A stretch of DNA of 64,000 bases from Paracoccus saliphilus. GTDB taxonomy: Bacteria; Pseudomonadota; Alphaproteobacteria; Rhodobacterales; Rhodobacteraceae. Position numbers and translations under genes: made by a program. Positions 3,394 to 10,858 of this stretch are shown piece after piece. The notes below the pieces were generated by a model. That model was not told the DNA's origin. It did not search any database and worked only from the letters and a program-made list of their open reading frames with translations. The DNA is taken from assembly GCF_028553805.1 (NCBI RefSeq), contig NZ_CP067140.1, positions 930,001 through 994,000 on the forward strand, in the 5' to 3' direction. Position 1 is the first letter of the stretch; each line of letters begins with the position of its first letter.

Positions 3394-4614
3394 TCAGTCT
3401 TCCAAAAATCGCATCATGAACCATGCAAGGCCCGAGCAGATCAGCGTCGCCGTGATCACCGGCAGTGCCGTGCCATTATAGAGCAGGCCGACCGGCGCGG
3501 CGATGACGGTGGCCAGCACTGTCGAGATTGCCGCAACCACGGAAGCGGCCATGCCGGCGATATGACCCATTTTCTGCAGTGCCAGAGCATTAAGGTTGCC
3601 GAAGGTTACGCCGGCCATGAAGAACACGCTCACCGCCCAGAGAAAGAAGGCCGGAAACTGCAATGCGGCAGGCAGGATGCCGGTCATGATCAGGACCAAC
3701 ATGATCGAGGAAACGCAGGTTTGCATCGTATAGGCCCATTTGGCGATACGGCGCATACCGAAGCGAACGACGAATGTCGCGTTCAACACCGTGCCCGAAC
3801 CGGACAGCAATGCCATGGCCGCGAACCAAAACGGAAAGGCGTCTCCCTTGCCATATGCTTCGCCGAATAGCTGTTGGGCCGAGGACAGAAGGGCGAACAT
3901 CTGGCCGAAGCCGAGTGTCAGGATGAATGTGCACAGCATCACATGGCGGTTGGTCAGGACTTCGCGGGCGGCCTCTTTCAGCGGTGTGACCTGCAAGGGG
4001 CGGCGACGCTCGACGGGCAGGGTTTCGGCCTGGCGCAAGTTCAGCCAAGTGACACCAACCAATGCGAAAAACAGGAAGCCGTAAAAGACGCCATGCCAAC
4101 CCGCCAACCAGATCATGCCAGCCCCAATGGACGGTGCGAGCGCGGGAACAATGATAAAGACCATCATCACAAGGCTGGTGATCCGCGCCATCTCGCGGCC
4201 TGCGTAAAGGTCACGAACCAGCGCGAGGCCGACAATGCGCGGGCCAGCCGCGCCGAGACCCTGCACAAATCGGGCGAAAAGCAGCATCTCTATGGATTCG
4301 GCGAAGATCGCAGCAAGGGTGGCGCATGCGTAAATGGCAAACCCGATTGTGATCGCGCGCTTGCGGCCGATAGCGTCCGAAATCGGCCCCGCAAACAGTG
4401 TGCCGGTCCCCATACCCGCGACAAAGACCGTCAGGATCAGTTGTGCGCGGTTGTGATCCTCGGGGGTCAGGGCTTCGGCGATTTGCGGCAGGGCAGGCAA
4501 CATCGCATCGATGGAGAACGCGATGGTGGCGAAAAGAAAGGCCAGCATTGCGATGAATTCTGGCATCGGCAGACGCCGCACCGGCGCATGCTGAAAACTG
4601 ACGGTCTGGTTCAT
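3394..4614 (-). CDS. MFS multidrug exporter, Bcr/CflA type
   Basis: A 406-residue major facilitator protein with about twelve hydrophobic segments. The Bcr/CflA-type opening is present (MLAFLFATIAFSIDAMLPALPQI), as is the MFS loop motif between TM2 and TM3 (GPISDAIGRKRAI). The TM4-5 region is RFVQGLGAAGPRIVGLALVRD, close to the usual RFxQGxGAA of drug exporters. It sits in the inner membrane and is predicted to extrude small toxic molecules by proton antiport; the substrate cannot be read from sequence. It stands alone between gap and the pdh operon, both of which end in their own terminators. Confidence 0.85.
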   Translation of the reverse strand: MNQTVSFQHAPVRRLPMPEFIAMLAFLFATIAFSIDAMLPALPQIAEALTPEDHNRAQLILTVFVAGMGTGTLFAGPISDAIGRKRAITIGFAIYACATLAAIFAESIEMLLFARFVQGLGAAGPRIVGLALVRDLYAGREMARITSLVMMVFIIVPALAPSIGAGMIWLAGWHGVFYGFLFFALVGVTWLNLRQAETLPVERRRPLQVTPLKEAAREVLTNRHVMLCTFILTLGFGQMFALLSSAQQLFGEAYGKGDAFPFWFAAMALLSGSGTVLNATFVVRFGMRRIAKWAYTMQTCVSSIMLVLIMTGILPAALQFPAFFLWAVSVFFMAGVTFGNLNALALQKMGHIAGMAASVVAAISTVLATVIAAPVGLLYNGTALPVITATLICSGLAWFMMRFLED

Positions 4615-4785: not shown

Positions 4786-6078
4786 TCAGGCCAGCATGCC
4801 CATAGGGTTTTCCAGATGGTTGACGATGGCCTCGAGTAATTGGGCGCCAAGCGCGCCGTCGATGACGCGGTGATCGACCGAGAGGGTCATCGACATGACA
4901 TTGCGGATCACCACCTCGTCTTCCTCTACCACCGGAGTCTGGATGCCCGCACCCACGGCAAGGATCGCGCCATGGGGAGGGTTGATGACCGCATCGAAAT
5001 TCTCGATGCCGAACATGCCCAGATTCGAGATGGCGAAGCTTCCGCCCTGATATTCATGCGGGGCGAGCTTCTTGTTCTTGGCGCGGTTGGCGAGGTCCTT
5101 CATCTCGGAGGACAGGGCCGACAGCGTCTTTTGCTGCGCGTCCTTCAGGACAGGTGTGAAGAGACCGCCTTCGACGGCCACGGCGACCGCGACATCCGAA
5201 GGTTTCAGCTTGATGATCCGATCGCCCGCCCAGACCGCGTTGGCATCCGGCACCTCTTGCAGGGCCAGCGCGCAAGCCTTGATGATGAAGTCGTTAACGG
5301 ACAGCTTCACGCCACGCGCTTCAAGCTGCTTGTTCAGATCGCCGCGGAATTTCATCAGTGCGTCCAGCTTGGCCGAGCGGCGCAGGTAGAAATGCGGGAT
5401 GGTCTGCTTCGCTTCGCCAAGCCGCTGCGCGATTGTGCGGCGCATACCGTCGAGCGTGACCTCTTCGGTTTCCCGATCGGCATAAATCTTGGCGATGGCA
5501 TCCGCCGAGGGGCCTTGCGGGGCGGCGGCAGCGGGTGCCGGGGCAGCTTCGGCCTTGGCCGGGGCGGCTCCAGGCTTCGCGCTTTCGACATCGGCCTTGA
5601 CGATCCGGCCGCGCGGGCCGGAGCCCTCGATCGAGGCCAGATCGATGCCCTTCTCGGCGGCGATGCGCCGTGCGAGAGGCGAGGCGAATATGCGGTCGCC
5701 CGAGGCGGATTTCGGTGCCGCAGGCGCGGGGGCGGGATCAGGTTTGGCCTCTGCCTTTGGGGCTTCGGCAACAGGGGCGGCTTGGGTCTTGGCCGGTGCC
5801 GGGGCGCTGGCGGCGGCGATATCGTCGGCGTTCTCGCCTTCCTCCAGCAGTACCGCGATGGGCGTATTGACCTTGACGCCGGCAGCGCCTTCCTCGACGA
5901 GGATCTTGCCTAAGGTCCCCTCGTCGACGGCCTCGAACTCCATCGTCGCCTTGTCGGTCTCGATCTCGGCGATGATGTCGCCGGATTTGACTTCGTCGCC
6001 CTCTTTCACCAGCCATTTGGCCAGCGTGCCTTCCTCCATGGTCGGAGAAAGCGCGGGCATCAGGATTTCTGTCGGCAT
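4786..6078 (-). CDS. pdhC: Pyruvate dehydrogenase E2, dihydrolipoamide acetyltransferase
   Basis: A 430-residue E2 core of the pyruvate dehydrogenase complex, transferring acetyl groups from lipoamide to CoA. It has a single N-terminal lipoyl domain (residues 1-80) with the lipoylated lysine in ETDKATME (Lys43). An Ala/Pro-rich linker follows, then the peripheral subunit-binding domain ([17 protein letters not shown]) and a second Ala/Pro linker. The catalytic domain ends with the active-site motif [12 protein letters not shown]. It begins 12 bases after pdhB, third in a pdhA-pdhB-pdhC operon, and is followed by a terminator. No E3 (lpd) gene is present here. Confidence 0.95.
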
Positions 6079-6090
6079 CTCGCTTGCTCC

Positions 6091-7476
6091 TTACTTGTAG
6101 GTGACCTTCTTCACCGCCTCGACAACTTCCGCCGGGGTGATCAGGGCGTGCTTTTCAAGATTGGCGGCATAGGGCATGGGAACGTCCTTGCCGGTGCAGT
6201 TGATCACCGGGGCGTCCAGCCAGTCGAAGGCGTTCTCCATGATATGGGCCGAGATATGGTTGCCGATGGAGCCCACGGGGAACCCTTCCTCGACGGTCAC
6301 GCAGCGGTTGGTCTTCTGGACCGATTCGATGATCGTGGCATAATCGATTGGGCGCAGGGTTCGCAGGTCGATCACCTCGGCCTCGATCCCTTCCTCGGCC
6401 AGCTTCTCGGCGGCTTCCAGTGCATGGGTCATGCCGATGCCAAAACTGACGATGGTCACGTCGCTGCCCGCGCGGGCGATACGGGCCTTACCGAAGGGGA
6501 TGGTGAAGTCTTCCAGATCCGGAACCTCGAAGCTGCGACCATAGAGGATCTCGTTTTCGAGGAAGATCACCGGGTTCGGATCGCGGATCGCTTGCTTCAG
6601 CAGACCCTTCGCATCGGCGGCGGTATAGGGCATTACCACCTTGAGGCCGGGAATGGCGGCATACCATGCGGAATAATCCTGGCTGTGCTGGGCGCCTACA
6701 CGGGCGGCGGCACCGTTCGGGCCGCGGAACACCATAGGTGCGCCCATCTGCCCGCCGGACATGTAGAGCGTCTTGGCCGCCGAGTTGATGATATGGTCGA
6801 TGCCCTGCATCGCGAAGTTGAAGGTCATGAACTCGACAATCGGGCGCAGCCCGGCCAGCGCGGCCCCGGTGCCGATGCCGGTGAAGCCCATTTCCGAGAT
6901 TGGCGTATCGACCACGCGGCGCGGTCCGAACTTGTCCAGCAAACCCTGGCTGATCTTGTACGCGCCCTCGTATTCCCCGACTTCTTCGCCCATCAGGAAG
7001 ACGGTGTCGTCGCGGTCCATTTCTTCTTCCATGGCCTCGCGAATGGCTTCGCGGACGGTCATGGTCTTCATGCTCGTGCCTTCGGGCCAATCGGGGCTAC
7101 GGTCAGCCTGCTTCGCTACGGGCGCAGCTTCGGCACGCTGGATCGTCTGGCCGGTATCATTGGGATGGCCGCCCTTGTCATCCTCTGGCTCAGACGCGGG
7201 AGAGGCAGAGGTTTTTATATCGTCGGCGCTTTCGCCTTCCTCGATCAGGACGGCGATGGGGGTGTTGACCTTCACGCCCTCGGTGCCCTCATCGATCAGG
7301 ATTTTGCCGAGCGTTCCTTCATCGACCGCCTCGAATTCCATAGTGGCCTTGTCGGTTTCGATCTCGGCGATGATGTCGCCGGCCTTGACCTCGTCGCCTT
7401 CCTTTTTCAGCCATTTCGCCAGCGTGCCTTCCTCCATGGTCGGCGACAGGGCGGGCATCAGGATCTCGGTTGCCAT
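6091..7476 (-). CDS. pdhB: Pyruvate dehydrogenase E1 component beta subunit with N-terminal lipoyl domain
   Basis: A 461-residue protein made of a lipoyl domain (about residues 1-80, ETDKATME motif) fused through an acidic, Pro-poor linker to a transketolase-type E1-beta module (about residues 135-461; [14 protein letters not shown] at its start, [15 protein letters not shown] within). E1-beta pairs with PdhA to decarboxylate pyruvate with thiamine diphosphate. A lipoyl domain on E1-beta is known in alphaproteobacteria such as Sinorhizobium and is not a sequencing artefact. Its first 23 residues differ from those of PdhC by one position, suggesting duplication or gene conversion. Confidence 0.95.
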
Positions 7477-7493
7477 ATTCGTCGTCCCTTCCC

Positions 7494-8528
7494 TTACGCG
7501 TGCTCTTCAGCCGAGCCTTGCGGCAGCTCTTCGGCATAGATATCGGTCCACAGCTCTTCCGCTGCGGGCTCCGGGCTCTCCTTGGCGAATTCGGCCGAGT
7601 CGTTCACGATATCCTTGATCTCCTTGTCGACGGCCTTGAGTTCGTCTTCGGTGGCGTGTTTGCCTTGCAGCAGCAGCTCGCGAACATTCTCGATGGCGTC
7701 GCGTTCGTCGCGCATCTTCTGCACCTCTTCGCGGGTCCGGTACTTGGCCGGATCGGACATGGAGTGGCCGCGATAGCGATAGGTCATGATTTCAAGGATG
7801 TAGGGGCCCTTGCCCGCGCGGCAATGCGCGACGGCCTTTTCTCCGGCGGCCTTGACCGCCAGGACATCCATGCCGTCAACCTGTTCGCCCGGTATGCCGA
7901 AGGCTTCGCCGCGACCGAACAGAGAGGTGGATTTGGTCGAGCGCTTGACCGAGGTGCCCATGGCATACTGGTTGTTCTCGATCACGAAAACCACTGGCAA
8001 GTCCCACAACTCGGCCATGTTGTATGTTTCATAGACTTGGCCCTGGTTGGCCGCGCCGTCACCGAAATAGGTGAAGGTGACATTGTCATTGCCCAGGTAC
8101 TTATCGGCGAATGCCAGCCCCGCGCCAAGTGGCACCTGGGCGCCGACGATACCGTGTCCGCCATAGAAATGCTTTTCGCGGCTGAACATGTGCATCGAGC
8201 CGCCCTTGCCCTTGGAATAGCCGCCCTCGCGGCCGGTCAGCTCGGCCATCACGCCGCGCGGGTCCATGCCACAGGCCAGCATGTGCCCATGATCGCGATA
8301 CGAGGTGACACGCTTGTCGCCTTCTTTCGAGCTGGCCTCGAGGCCGACGACGACGGCTTCCTGGCCGATATAGAGGTGACAGAAGCCACCGATCAGGCCC
8401 ATGCCGTAAAGCTGGCCTGCCTTTTCCTCGAATCGGCGGATCAGCAGCATGTCGCGATAGTATTTCAGCAATTCGTCCTTGGAAGTATTGGACGGCGCCG
8501 ACTTGCTGGCAGCGGGTTTCCTGGCCAT
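7494..8528 (-). CDS. pdhA: Pyruvate dehydrogenase E1 component alpha subunit
   Basis: A 344-residue E1-alpha subunit that binds thiamine diphosphate and decarboxylates pyruvate together with PdhB. The cofactor motif [17 protein letters not shown] is complete, ending in the conserved Asn of [14 protein letters not shown]. The active-site loop [13 protein letters not shown] is also present. It is the first gene of the pdh operon, 17 bases before pdhB. Upstream lies an inverted repeat (8560-8579) that may regulate the operon. The start is set by the hydrophilic [10 protein letters not shown] leader. Confidence 0.96.
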
Positions 8529-9826: not shown

Positions 9827-9872
9827 AAAAAAAATGCGGCGGCGCCCAGGGAGGAGGAGAGGGCGCCGCCGC
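9827..9872 (-). terminator. Rho-independent terminator formed by the last anti-SD hairpin
   Basis: Read on the minus strand, the perfect 12-bp stem GCGGCGGCGCCC/GGGCGCCGCCGC is followed after one A by eight consecutive U (plus-strand A run 9827-9834). The hairpin loop carries CUCCUCCUCCC, so the same structure is terminator and putative mRNA-binding element. Confidence 0.92.
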
Positions 9873-9906
9873 GCAACGCTGGCCCAGGGAGGAGGAGGGG
9901 CCGCGT
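9836..9906 (-). ncRNA. CcsR/cuckoo-like sRNA unit 5
   Basis: The 5' hairpin pairs ACGC/GGCCC (9876-9885, one bulge) with GGGCC/GCGT (9898-9906). The 3' hairpin is a perfect 12-bp GC stem (9836-9847 with 9861-9872) with a 13-base loop carrying the motif. This last hairpin doubles as the array terminator. Confidence 0.75.
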
Positions 9907-9912
9907 ATGGGC

Positions 9913-9986
9913 TGCGGTGAAGGCCAGGGAGGAGGAGAGGCCGGCACCGCACACGACAGGCTAGGGAGGAGGAGAAAGCCCGTCGT
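9913..9986 (-). ncRNA. CcsR/cuckoo-like sRNA unit 4
   Basis: The 5' hairpin pairs ACGAC/GGCT (9953-9957, 9959-9962) with AGCC/GTCGT (9977-9980, 9982-9986). The 3' hairpin pairs 9913-9919 with 9945-9951 and GGCC with GGCC inside. Both loops have the standard motif. Its 5' stem and preceding spacer closely resemble those of unit 3, suggesting a recent tandem duplication. Confidence 0.72.
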
Positions 9987-10018
9987 ATCGATTTGCCGCA
10001 AATAAGGCGGCTATGGGG

Positions 10019-10093
10019 TGCGGTGGCTGCCCGGGAGGAGGAGTAGGCGTCACCGCAAACGACGAGCTGGGAGGGAGGAGAAAGGCCCGTCGT
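10019..10093 (-). ncRNA. CcsR/cuckoo-like sRNA unit 3
   Basis: The 5' hairpin pairs 10059-10064 with 10088-10093 and has the variant loop CUCCUCCCUCCC. The 3' hairpin pairs 10019-10025 with 10051-10057 and GCC with GGC inside, with the standard loop. The two stand two bases apart. Upstream in the transcript (10094-10127) is a spacer with a small GCCGC/GCGGC hairpin, which is repeated before unit 4. Confidence 0.72.
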
Positions 10094-10127
10094 ATGGTCT
10101 TGCCGCTAAACAGGGCGGCTATCTTGT

Positions 10128-10205
10128 GCGGCGGCTCCCTAGGGAGGAGGAGAAGGAGCCGCCGCTCGCATCCGTAAGCCCAGGGAGGAGGAGAAGGGCT
10201 GCGGA
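10128..10205 (-). ncRNA. CcsR/cuckoo-like sRNA unit 2
   Basis: This unit has two hairpins. The 5' one pairs AGCCC (10177-10181) with GGGCT (10196-10200) and TCCG (10171-10174) with CGGA (10202-10205). The 3' one is a perfect 11-bp stem (10128-10138 with 10155-10165) with a 16-base loop. Both loops contain CUCCUCCUCCC. They are separated by five bases, and from unit 1 by ten. Confidence 0.75.
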
Positions 10206-10215
10206 GCTAACTTTG

Positions 10216-10290
10216 GGCGGCGCCCTCCGGGGAGGAGGAGAGGAGGGCGCCGCCAAATCCCGAACCCAAGGGAGGAGGAGAAGGGTCGGG
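10216..10290 (-). ncRNA. CcsR/cuckoo-like sRNA unit 1
   Basis: This is the first unit after the DUF1127 gene. The 5' hairpin pairs 10283-10290 with 10259-10267 around one bulged A. The 3' hairpin is a perfect 13-bp stem (10216-10228 with 10242-10254) with a 13-base loop. Both loops carry CUCCUCCUCCC, complementary to Shine-Dalgarno sequences. The two hairpins are four bases apart. Confidence 0.75.
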
Positions 10291-10301
10291 GAAGCGAATT
10301 C

Positions 10302-10523
10302 TTACTTGCCGTAGGCCGCTTCGTGGGCCAGGCGGGTGATCATCGAGCGGTTGATGCCCAGATCATCAAGGTCGCGGGTGGTCAATGCGTTCAGTTCGCG
10401 CAGTGTCTGGCGATAGACCGCACGGCGTGCGCGGTTTTCCTGCATCCGCTGAACCGCGTTCAGCAGGCGGCCACGCAGGCCGGTTTCGGCGGCGGCATTC
10501 TGTGCTTGAGCGATAACAGCCAT
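10302..10523 (-). CDS. DUF1127 small protein, CcaF1-like host gene of the sRNA array
   Basis: A 73-residue basic protein. The C-terminal part TLRELNALTTRDLDDLGINR is the hallmark of the DUF1127 domain; the N-terminal half is a predicted helix rich in Ala and Arg. In R. sphaeroides the equivalent protein (RSP_6037, CcaF1) is made from the transcript that also yields the CcsR sRNAs, is stress induced, and affects RNA maturation and turnover; that role is carried over here by inference. The start at 10523 has an AAGGAAA ribosome-binding site. The stop codon lies 11 bases before the first hairpin. Confidence 0.85.
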   Translation of the reverse strand: MAVIAQAQNAAAETGLRGRLLNAVQRMQENRARRAVYRQTLRELNALTTRDLDDLGINRSMITRLAHEAAYGK

Positions 10524-10858
10524 GATGTTTCCTTTCGTTCGTCTCGTCTGGCACCCGGCCCGGATGGCCCGGTGCTTCGTTGGGATTAAGATGGACCTTA
10601 TGCTGCAGTTGCACAATCCTCCCTTTTGCCAATGCTGCCATGCAGCAGGTGCATGACTGGCACGTAAGCCTGGGGTTGTAACCTCATGGAAATGTGATCG
10701 AAAAAGGCGAGCGCATTTGTCTTTAGCGCTAATGCTGCGACTGCAAACGATTTGTTCCGCGATGTTTGGTGGGGGATAGGCCGGGTTGCGGCGGGGTGGT
10801 TGCTGCGCCGTGCCGGATACACCATGTTGTTGGGGGATCCAGATACAAGGCCGATAAT
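10524..10858. other. Divergent intergenic region between DUF1127 and apbC
   Basis: This 335-base region must hold promoters for both flanking genes. Besides the candidate RpoH-type promoter I see a small GCTGC/GCAGC hairpin near 10634 and no convincing ORF on either strand. The section 10690-10760 is AT-richer than the surroundings. Confidence 0.5.
10589..10616 (-). promoter_or_regulatory. Candidate RpoH-type promoter for the DUF1127-sRNA transcript
   Basis: On the minus strand TTGTGC (10611-10616) is followed after 16 bases by CCATCT (10589-10594), about 65 bases before the start codon. CCATnT-like -10 elements are typical of heat-shock sigma factors in Rhodobacteraceae, and the R. sphaeroides counterpart depends on RpoHI/RpoHII. 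The -35 is not a perfect CTTG, so this is tentative. Confidence 0.35.

Follow-up and report, generated by a model that had tools for sequence, protein, structure and literature searches.

The DNA analysed here, referred to as the window, is a stretch of 64,000 nucleotides from Paracoccus saliphilus (contig NZ_CP067140.1, positions 930,001 to 994,000). Its minus strand carries a gene for a small DUF1127 protein followed by a run of hairpins, and a candidate promoter and regulatory box lie upstream of the gene. The features, in the direction in which the minus strand is read, are as follows.

10630..10644, minus strand: putative LsrB/VtlR-type box TGCATGGCAGCATTG, with 14 of 15 VtlR motif letters, conserved at near-fixed spacing
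10588..10616, minus strand: RpoH-like candidate promoter TTGTGC-N16-CCATCTT, a conserved block in the upstream alignment
10302..10523, minus strand: DUF1127 gene, 73 aa, CcaF1-like, leader AAAGGA (PF06568, 43.5 bits)
10216..10290, minus strand: unit 1, hairpins 1 (10290-10259) and 2 (10254-10216), from the fold and both-side changes
10128..10207, minus strand: unit 2, hairpins 3 (10207-10168, weakly conserved) and 4 (10165-10128), from the fold and covariation
10102..10119, minus strand: linker hairpin 1, GCCGC-CCTGTTTA-GCGGC, preceded by ATA, from the fold, recurring in relatives
10019..10093, minus strand: unit 3, hairpins 5 (10093-10059, variant loop CTCCTCCCTCCC) and 6 (10057-10019), from the fold and covariation
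9995..10011, minus strand: linker hairpin 2, GCCGC-CTTATTT-GCGGC, preceded by ATA, from the fold, recurring in relatives
9914..9988, minus strand: unit 4, hairpins 7 (9988-9951) and 8 (9950-9914), from the fold and covariation
9838..9912, minus strand: unit 5, hairpins 9 (core 9906-9876) and 10 (9870-9838), from the fold and alignment
9827..9834, minus strand: eight T (U8) after hairpin 10, from the sequence

The minimum free energy (MFE) fold of the window placed ten consecutive motif-loop hairpins on the minus strand between 10290 and 9838, as a sequence-only reading of this DNA had proposed. That reading gave all ten loops the motif CUCCUCCUCCC; nine carry it exactly, but the loop of hairpin 5 reads CUCCUCCCUCCC. 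It also described gaps that alternate between short and long, a pattern that is present in the first seven gaps of the MFE fold (4, 8, 2, 34, 1, 30 and 0 bases) although blurred at the end of the array. Hairpin 10 is followed by an A and then by eight T, and this hairpin and the U8 tract are likely to form an intrinsic terminator. A scan of the window for the 11-mer CTCCTCCTCCC that allowed up to one mismatch identified nine copies, all of them exact, against a mean of 1.72 in dinucleotide shuffles, none of 100 of which reached nine. The whole 4.6-Mb genome contains this 11-mer 11 times, nine of them inside the array.

The DUF1127 assignment was supported by Pfam (43.5 bits for PF06568 against a cut-off of 23.3), and the protein was 100% identical to that of one related locus (L001), which places the window close to P. 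methylarcula. With its stop at 10302 and the first hairpin starting at 10290 on the same strand, the gene lies directly upstream of the array, a layout that recurred in related loci. The leader AAGGA was found in 44 of 45 DUF1127 loci, the start having been set too late in the 45th. Downstream of the array lie rlmJ and, at a greater distance, the pdh genes that encode E1 alpha, E1 beta and E2 (window 4786-8528, minus strand). Further arrays in the same genome were considered and rejected: no array was seen in the 301 bases read at each of the other two copies of the 11-mer, and the 3-kb loci of the other two DUF1127 genes (L055 and L057) contained no chain of motif sites.

To assess the hairpins we used an alignment of ten arrays of similar layout, namely the window and nine of 54 related loci, with the structure taken from the fold of the window. 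Across this alignment 90.6% of cells were paired, a value that none of 500 shuffles equaled, and 28 of 117 pairs had changes on both sides (shuffle mean 14.4; none of 500 reached 28). The claims that the stems differ yet stay paired, and that they are conserved in relatives, were therefore borne out, with loops kept and with hairpin 3 as a weak exception (68% of cells paired). Among the five measures, the count of further pair types was the one that did not rise above the shuffles, 117 of 500 of which reached the observed value. Slid structures were 36-45% paired, in a control that is biased toward a structure derived from one of the aligned sequences. Unguided RNAalifold returned 107 pairs, 24 of them with both-side changes and mostly in the same hairpins. 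Unit 5 was the most conserved unit in sequence, stems included, and both linker stems were invariant, which makes them neutral for or against pairing. The folding energy of the array was 11 standard deviations below that of 100 dinucleotide shuffles (z -11). Energy alone is weak evidence here because the window is GC-rich and the most stable of its 32 tiles had a lower energy than the array (-243.8 versus -231.8).

Over the window, only a tRNA reached the Rfam gathering threshold. The best score for CcsR1 (RF02791) was 42.7 bits against a gathering cut-off of 65.3 (E 6.8e-08) and that for ar14 (RF02344) was 39.8 against 58.8; as both are below gathering, the array is not filed under either model. 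A DUF1127 gene with CcsR-like sRNAs is described as a CIN1 locus in the parts of two R. sphaeroides papers available to us (PMC10253847, PMC8625941), and the P. saliphilus locus has that composition: the gene on the same strand, followed by two-hairpin CcsR-like units with CCUCCUCCC loops. It also has the traits of cuckoo RNAs, which are adjacent hairpins, a kept loop motif and stems that vary, here in units 1-4, the stem of unit 5 being conserved. Together with the Pfam score, the sub-threshold CcsR1 and ar14 matches and the recurrence of the layout in relatives, these data supported the proposed identification of the locus as a CIN1/CcsR-type ("cuckoo") array. The main text of an sRNA screen in P. 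denitrificans (PMC5107571) does not mention CcsR, DUF1127 or ar14.

The sequence-only reading had pointed out that five units are more than the four of R. sphaeroides. Array size was compared as the number of motif sites, since hairpin counting misses hairpins in some loci, and arrays on cut contigs (L010 and L023) were included. The tally comprised 47 primary loci, the window among them, after setting aside second loci (L008, L031, L032, L034-L036 and L038) and L040, where motif sites do not form a chain. At least ten sites were present in 37 of the 47 loci: 15 had exactly ten, 22 had more than ten, and 12 sites alone accounted for 17. Some of the ten loci with fewer than ten sites are cut by contig ends or come from distant genera. 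The largest primary array, with 20 sites, was L014 from P. saliphilus. Beyond these, 295 Rhodobacteraceae genomes were drawn, one per genus but for one, and 216 of them hold at least one close pair of CCTCCTCCC; the longest arrays among the matches listed, which cover 43 of the 216 genomes, have 26, 14, 14, 13, 13 and 12 sites (L069/L090, L091, L101, L079, L092 and L074, respectively). Ten hairpins is thus an ordinary array size, and we rejected the view that five units are exceptional because larger arrays are common in relatives.

Some of these arrays have distinctive internal organization. The 26-site array (L090, G165:C1:333500-340500, the same as L069) is from another genus, lies behind a DUF1127 gene and is composed of near-identical three-hairpin blocks of about 140 bases each. 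In L014, downstream of position 4219, the same linker letters occur between four-hairpin blocks, which looks like the recent duplication of a block. The arrays at second DUF1127 loci of Paracoccus (L031, L034, L035 and L038) are shorter, at 4-6 sites, and in most of them a long extra hairpin (GGCGGCATTCTTCTGCC..) precedes the linker.

Each of the two long gaps of the array is filled by one hairpin that lacks the motif, a feature absent from the sequence-only reading. Gaps between motif sites fell into two groups, mostly 15-39 and 50-59 bases. In the related loci and the window, 91 of 92 gaps of 46-99 bases contained a stem of at least five pairs compared with 13.4 predicted by shuffling, and with the cut placed at 55 bases the result was 40 of 41 compared with 6.3; as the loci are related, these gaps are not independent cases. 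The linker sequence is conserved in Paracoccus, with at least one in 37 of 44 loci (L001-L045 without L040), and CATA, GATA or TATA precedes 68 of 72 linkers. Other genera have different short hairpins in the corresponding gaps. After removal of loci with fewer than four sites, of L056 and of seven duplicate or cut loci, a stem of at least five pairs was present in 36 of 70 such gaps (15.5 expected) and the folding energy was in the lowest 5% of the gap's own shuffles in 48 of 70, about one-third showing none.

A long loop (..CCTCCCTCC) occurs in the first hairpin after the linker in 34 of 70 cases and in 3 of 381 other hairpins, and we read the linker and the hairpin that follows it as what may be one building block. 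That the linker is a cutting signal is a guess, prompted by its AU-rich flank and by what RNase E is known to do. An obvious dispersed element it is not: the linker pattern has six matches in the genome, two of which are the linkers themselves, compared with ten for the reversed pattern.

Upstream of the DUF1127 gene, the core promoter looks like an RpoH promoter, an assignment based on what is reported in sections of PMC10253847 and on the -35 TTG in PMC10673084. The box TGCATGGCAGCATTG lies 28 bases upstream of the -35 element and has, on the other strand, 14 of the 15 letters of the reported VtlR motif CAATGCAGCCATGCA (PMC12595884, in part). It deviates by one letter, AG for TG, from the consensus GCAT-N3-TG-N3-T given in the accessible text of PMC7486931. 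The relatives were scanned for the VtlR motif after dropping rows that were distant, had a start out of alignment or lacked an array (L036, L040, L041, L045-L048 and L050-L054), L069 as the equivalent of L090, and L056 as the window's own. At least 11 of 15 letters were found in 40 of 43 closer loci and 42 of 46 loci from other genera, and 31 and 29 of these sets, respectively, had at least 13. The 13-letter level was never attained by shuffled upstream sequences, which had 11 or more matching letters in 47 of 860 and 97 of 920 trials; in this comparison the scanned rows are interrelated. The -35 TTG starts 27 or 28 bases past the box start in 40 of 40 closer loci; for other genera the first pattern match gave the same distance in 37 of 42 loci, and inspection by eye added two (L074 and L088). 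To us the -35 region TTGTGCAnnnGCAGCA looks like a second half-site about 32 bases further on, as would be expected of a LysR activation site.

With up to two mismatches allowed, the box had 30 matches in the genome, two of them exact, versus one for the reversed pattern. The only other exact copy, AATGCTGCCATGCAG, is at L127 1501-1777 (G000:C1:2782042), upstream of a possible 53-residue ORF without an NCBIfam match. The SorX-type gene described below and one other DUF1127 gene of the genome had at best 11 of 15 box letters, a level that shuffles also reach.

These observations have parallels in Rhizobiales. In Brucella, VtlR is reported to activate three DUF1127 genes and AbcR2 (PMC12595884), and NfeR1, a cuckoo-type sRNA of S. 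meliloti, is activated by LsrB via a site at -72 to -57 (PMC10746234); the abcR1 promoter has an LsrB consensus site between -61 and -49 (PMC8844928), each as given in the available portions of these sources. The trxB-vtlR order is described, in part of PMC7486931, as well conserved in Alphaproteobacteria, with abcR genes after vtlR in A. tumefaciens. In the literature searched we found no earlier description of the linker block or of the LsrB-type box, and where the CcsR/ccaF1/CIN1 locus is discussed LsrB was found in a reference only (PMC12501420).

The P. saliphilus genome contains a candidate for a corresponding regulator.

G000:C1:2007778-2008656 (L241 2731-3687): LsrB-like LysR gene, identified by its match to trxB-linked LysR frames

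The label LsrB-like is putative and comes from comparison with those trxB-linked frames, and the LsrB name was not among the top NCBIfam models for the protein. The protein is 50% identical to L191, a trxB-linked LysR, over 293 residues, with higher identity in the DNA-binding part. In a class-wide draw of 76 genomes, 16 of 30 trxB loci hold a LysR frame that matches it, 14 of them at E <1e-75. With L191 as query, a homologue at E <1e-70 was identified in 58 of 61 family genomes, and the remaining three genomes are 74-86% complete. A SorX match lies downstream of the P. saliphilus gene (L241 3947-4034, where L241 is G000:C1:2005000-2012000; 50.0 bits against a gathering cut-off of 46.6), and SorX or suhB-type matches adjoin the LysR in 5 of 14 trxB loci scanned, all five below gathering. 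The gene is not beside trxB; the LysR that adjoins trxB in this genome was rejected as LsrB-like, being GcvA-like.

We propose that, throughout Rhodobacteraceae, an LsrB/VtlR-type LysR activator directly controls the CIN1/CcsR arrays by acting on an RpoH-type promoter, and that a third building block, the AU-flanked linker hairpin coupled to a long-loop hairpin, would punctuate the transcript. We consider the chances of this proposal to be evenly balanced. If it is correct, LsrB/VtlR control of anti-Shine-Dalgarno (anti-SD) sRNAs and DUF1127 proteins predates the split from Rhizobiales, contrary to a statement in the accessible part of PMC11975290 that LsrB appears unique to that order. Alternatively, the box may be that of OxyR or of a LysR-type regulator other than an LsrB/VtlR orthologue, a serious possibility to which we give somewhat less than even weight. 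LysR boxes resemble each other, this one is a letter off the reported VtlR motif, and the LsrB-like gene is away from trxB, whose neighbour is a different LysR. Against that, 14 of 15 letters and a near-fixed spacing recur in many genera, the LsrB-like LysR is present in nearly all family genomes searched, and in P. saliphilus its gene is followed by a SorX-type sRNA as abcR follows vtlR. The LsrB-type box is a better lead than the linker block.

The loop motif is an anti-SD sequence according to section 2.7 of PMC3927594, and therefore should pair with mRNA leaders. This reverses the suggestion that the array might titrate ribosomes, which we rejected, as anti-SD loops should bind mRNAs. For the related NfeR1, the accessible text of PMC10746234 reports silencing of mRNAs by such loops. 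The genome has 13 GGGAGGAGG-N3-9-RTG sites compared with five for the reversed pattern, a small excess, and the genes form a mixed set. Two of these sites precede short frames, of 17 and 61 codons. The products at ten scanned sites were a cupin protein, an acyl-CoA dehydrogenase, a class IV aminotransferase, PanC, a TRAP binding protein, an ABC permease, malate-CoA ligase beta, an MFS transporter of the lactate kind, an oxidoreductase, and a protein resembling sarcosine oxidase alpha, which is cut by the locus end and scored below its cut-off. In the candidate leaders (L113-L125) the GGAGGAGG site is the putative loop partner. Two copies of an MFS transporter with identical first 70 residues have the same GGGAGGAGG leader (L121 and L123, G000:C1:3745540 and 4221400).

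The presence of C1 metabolism and transporters among the candidate targets fits what parts of PMC10253847 report for CcsR, and reports for NfeR1, and with so few sites the list is a lead only. Among nine neighbouring starts, placed by our own reading, the pdhA leader (AGGAGG) was the best loop partner (-12.1 kcal/mol), and the pyruvate dehydrogenase (PDH) complex is reported to be CcsR-modulated in R. sphaeroides in the available sections of PMC8625941. The leader of the DUF1127 gene itself was a weak partner (-4.4).

Taken together, we think it very probable that the locus is a CIN1-type operon, in which a single stress-induced transcript would encode the CcaF1-like DUF1127 protein and, in its 3' UTR, five two-hairpin anti-SD sRNAs of the CcsR type that would be cut into units. 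Transcription would start at the RpoH-like promoter, probably with help from an LsrB/VtlR-type LysR activator, and would stop at the last hairpin. RNase E, assisted by the CcaF1-like protein, probably cuts the transcript, and the two CUCCUCCUCCC loops of each unit would then pair with strong SD sites of mRNAs and block their translation. The AUA-preceded linker hairpins would delimit the blocks, with a possible role in placing cuts or in protecting ends. For R. sphaeroides, the accessible parts of PMC10253847 and PMC8625941 place CcsR1-4 after ccaF1, with co-transcription from an RpoHI/HII promoter and with CcaF1 involved in the cutting of the transcript by RNase E.

The near-identity of the loops beside variable stems, and the wide range of natural array sizes, would also suit a different action, in which the mainly uncut array is a global decoy that lowers free SD-bearing mRNA, with the number of loops setting its strength and specific targets being minor. 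We regard this as unlikely, since the R. sphaeroides RNA, in the accounts just cited, is processed into units and affects named pathways, and since some loops differ systematically, those after linkers being long. A palindromic DNA repeat with no function as RNA, as tandem and partly near-identical units in some genera (G165) might suggest, is an extremely improbable account of the hairpins and was rejected: in the counted loci the loops always lie on one strand, which is that of the DUF1127 gene, stems change on both sides while loops stay, and no second array was seen around the two other genomic copies of the 11-mer.

The P. saliphilus array is one more, average-sized case of a known family of stress RNAs. 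Natural arrays of 8 to 26 loops offer a dose series in which decoy and target-specific action could be compared, and the linker hairpins are specific sites at which the cutting of long arrays can be investigated. The promoter could be of wider importance: if Rhizobiales share its box, then anti-SD RNAs, DUF1127 proteins and a single LysR regulator would belong together in an old Alphaproteobacteria module.

The closest known system is ccaF1-CcsR1-4 of R. sphaeroides, which, as described in part of PMC10253847, likewise has a DUF1127 gene and two-hairpin RNAs with CCUCCUCCC loops, together with a stress promoter and a 3' terminator, to which the RpoH-like candidate promoter and the likely terminator here would correspond; it has four units whereas P. 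saliphilus has five, and the stems differ. The cuckoo/ar14 sRNAs of Rhizobiales (NfeR1, SmelA075) similarly combine stems that vary with loops that all contain an anti-SD motif, but with 2-4 hairpins per RNA in separate genes, in contrast to ten in one 3' UTR here. The NfeR1 promoter is a sigma-70 promoter, whereas the core here appears RpoH-like, and NfeR1 is activated by LsrB via an upstream site, where for the box upstream of this array binding is a prediction. Finally, the VtlR/LsrB-controlled DUF1127 and AbcR genes of Rhizobiales have a comparable 15-base box upstream, as presented in the available sections of PMC12595884 and PMC7486931, from which the box of P. saliphilus differs by one letter.
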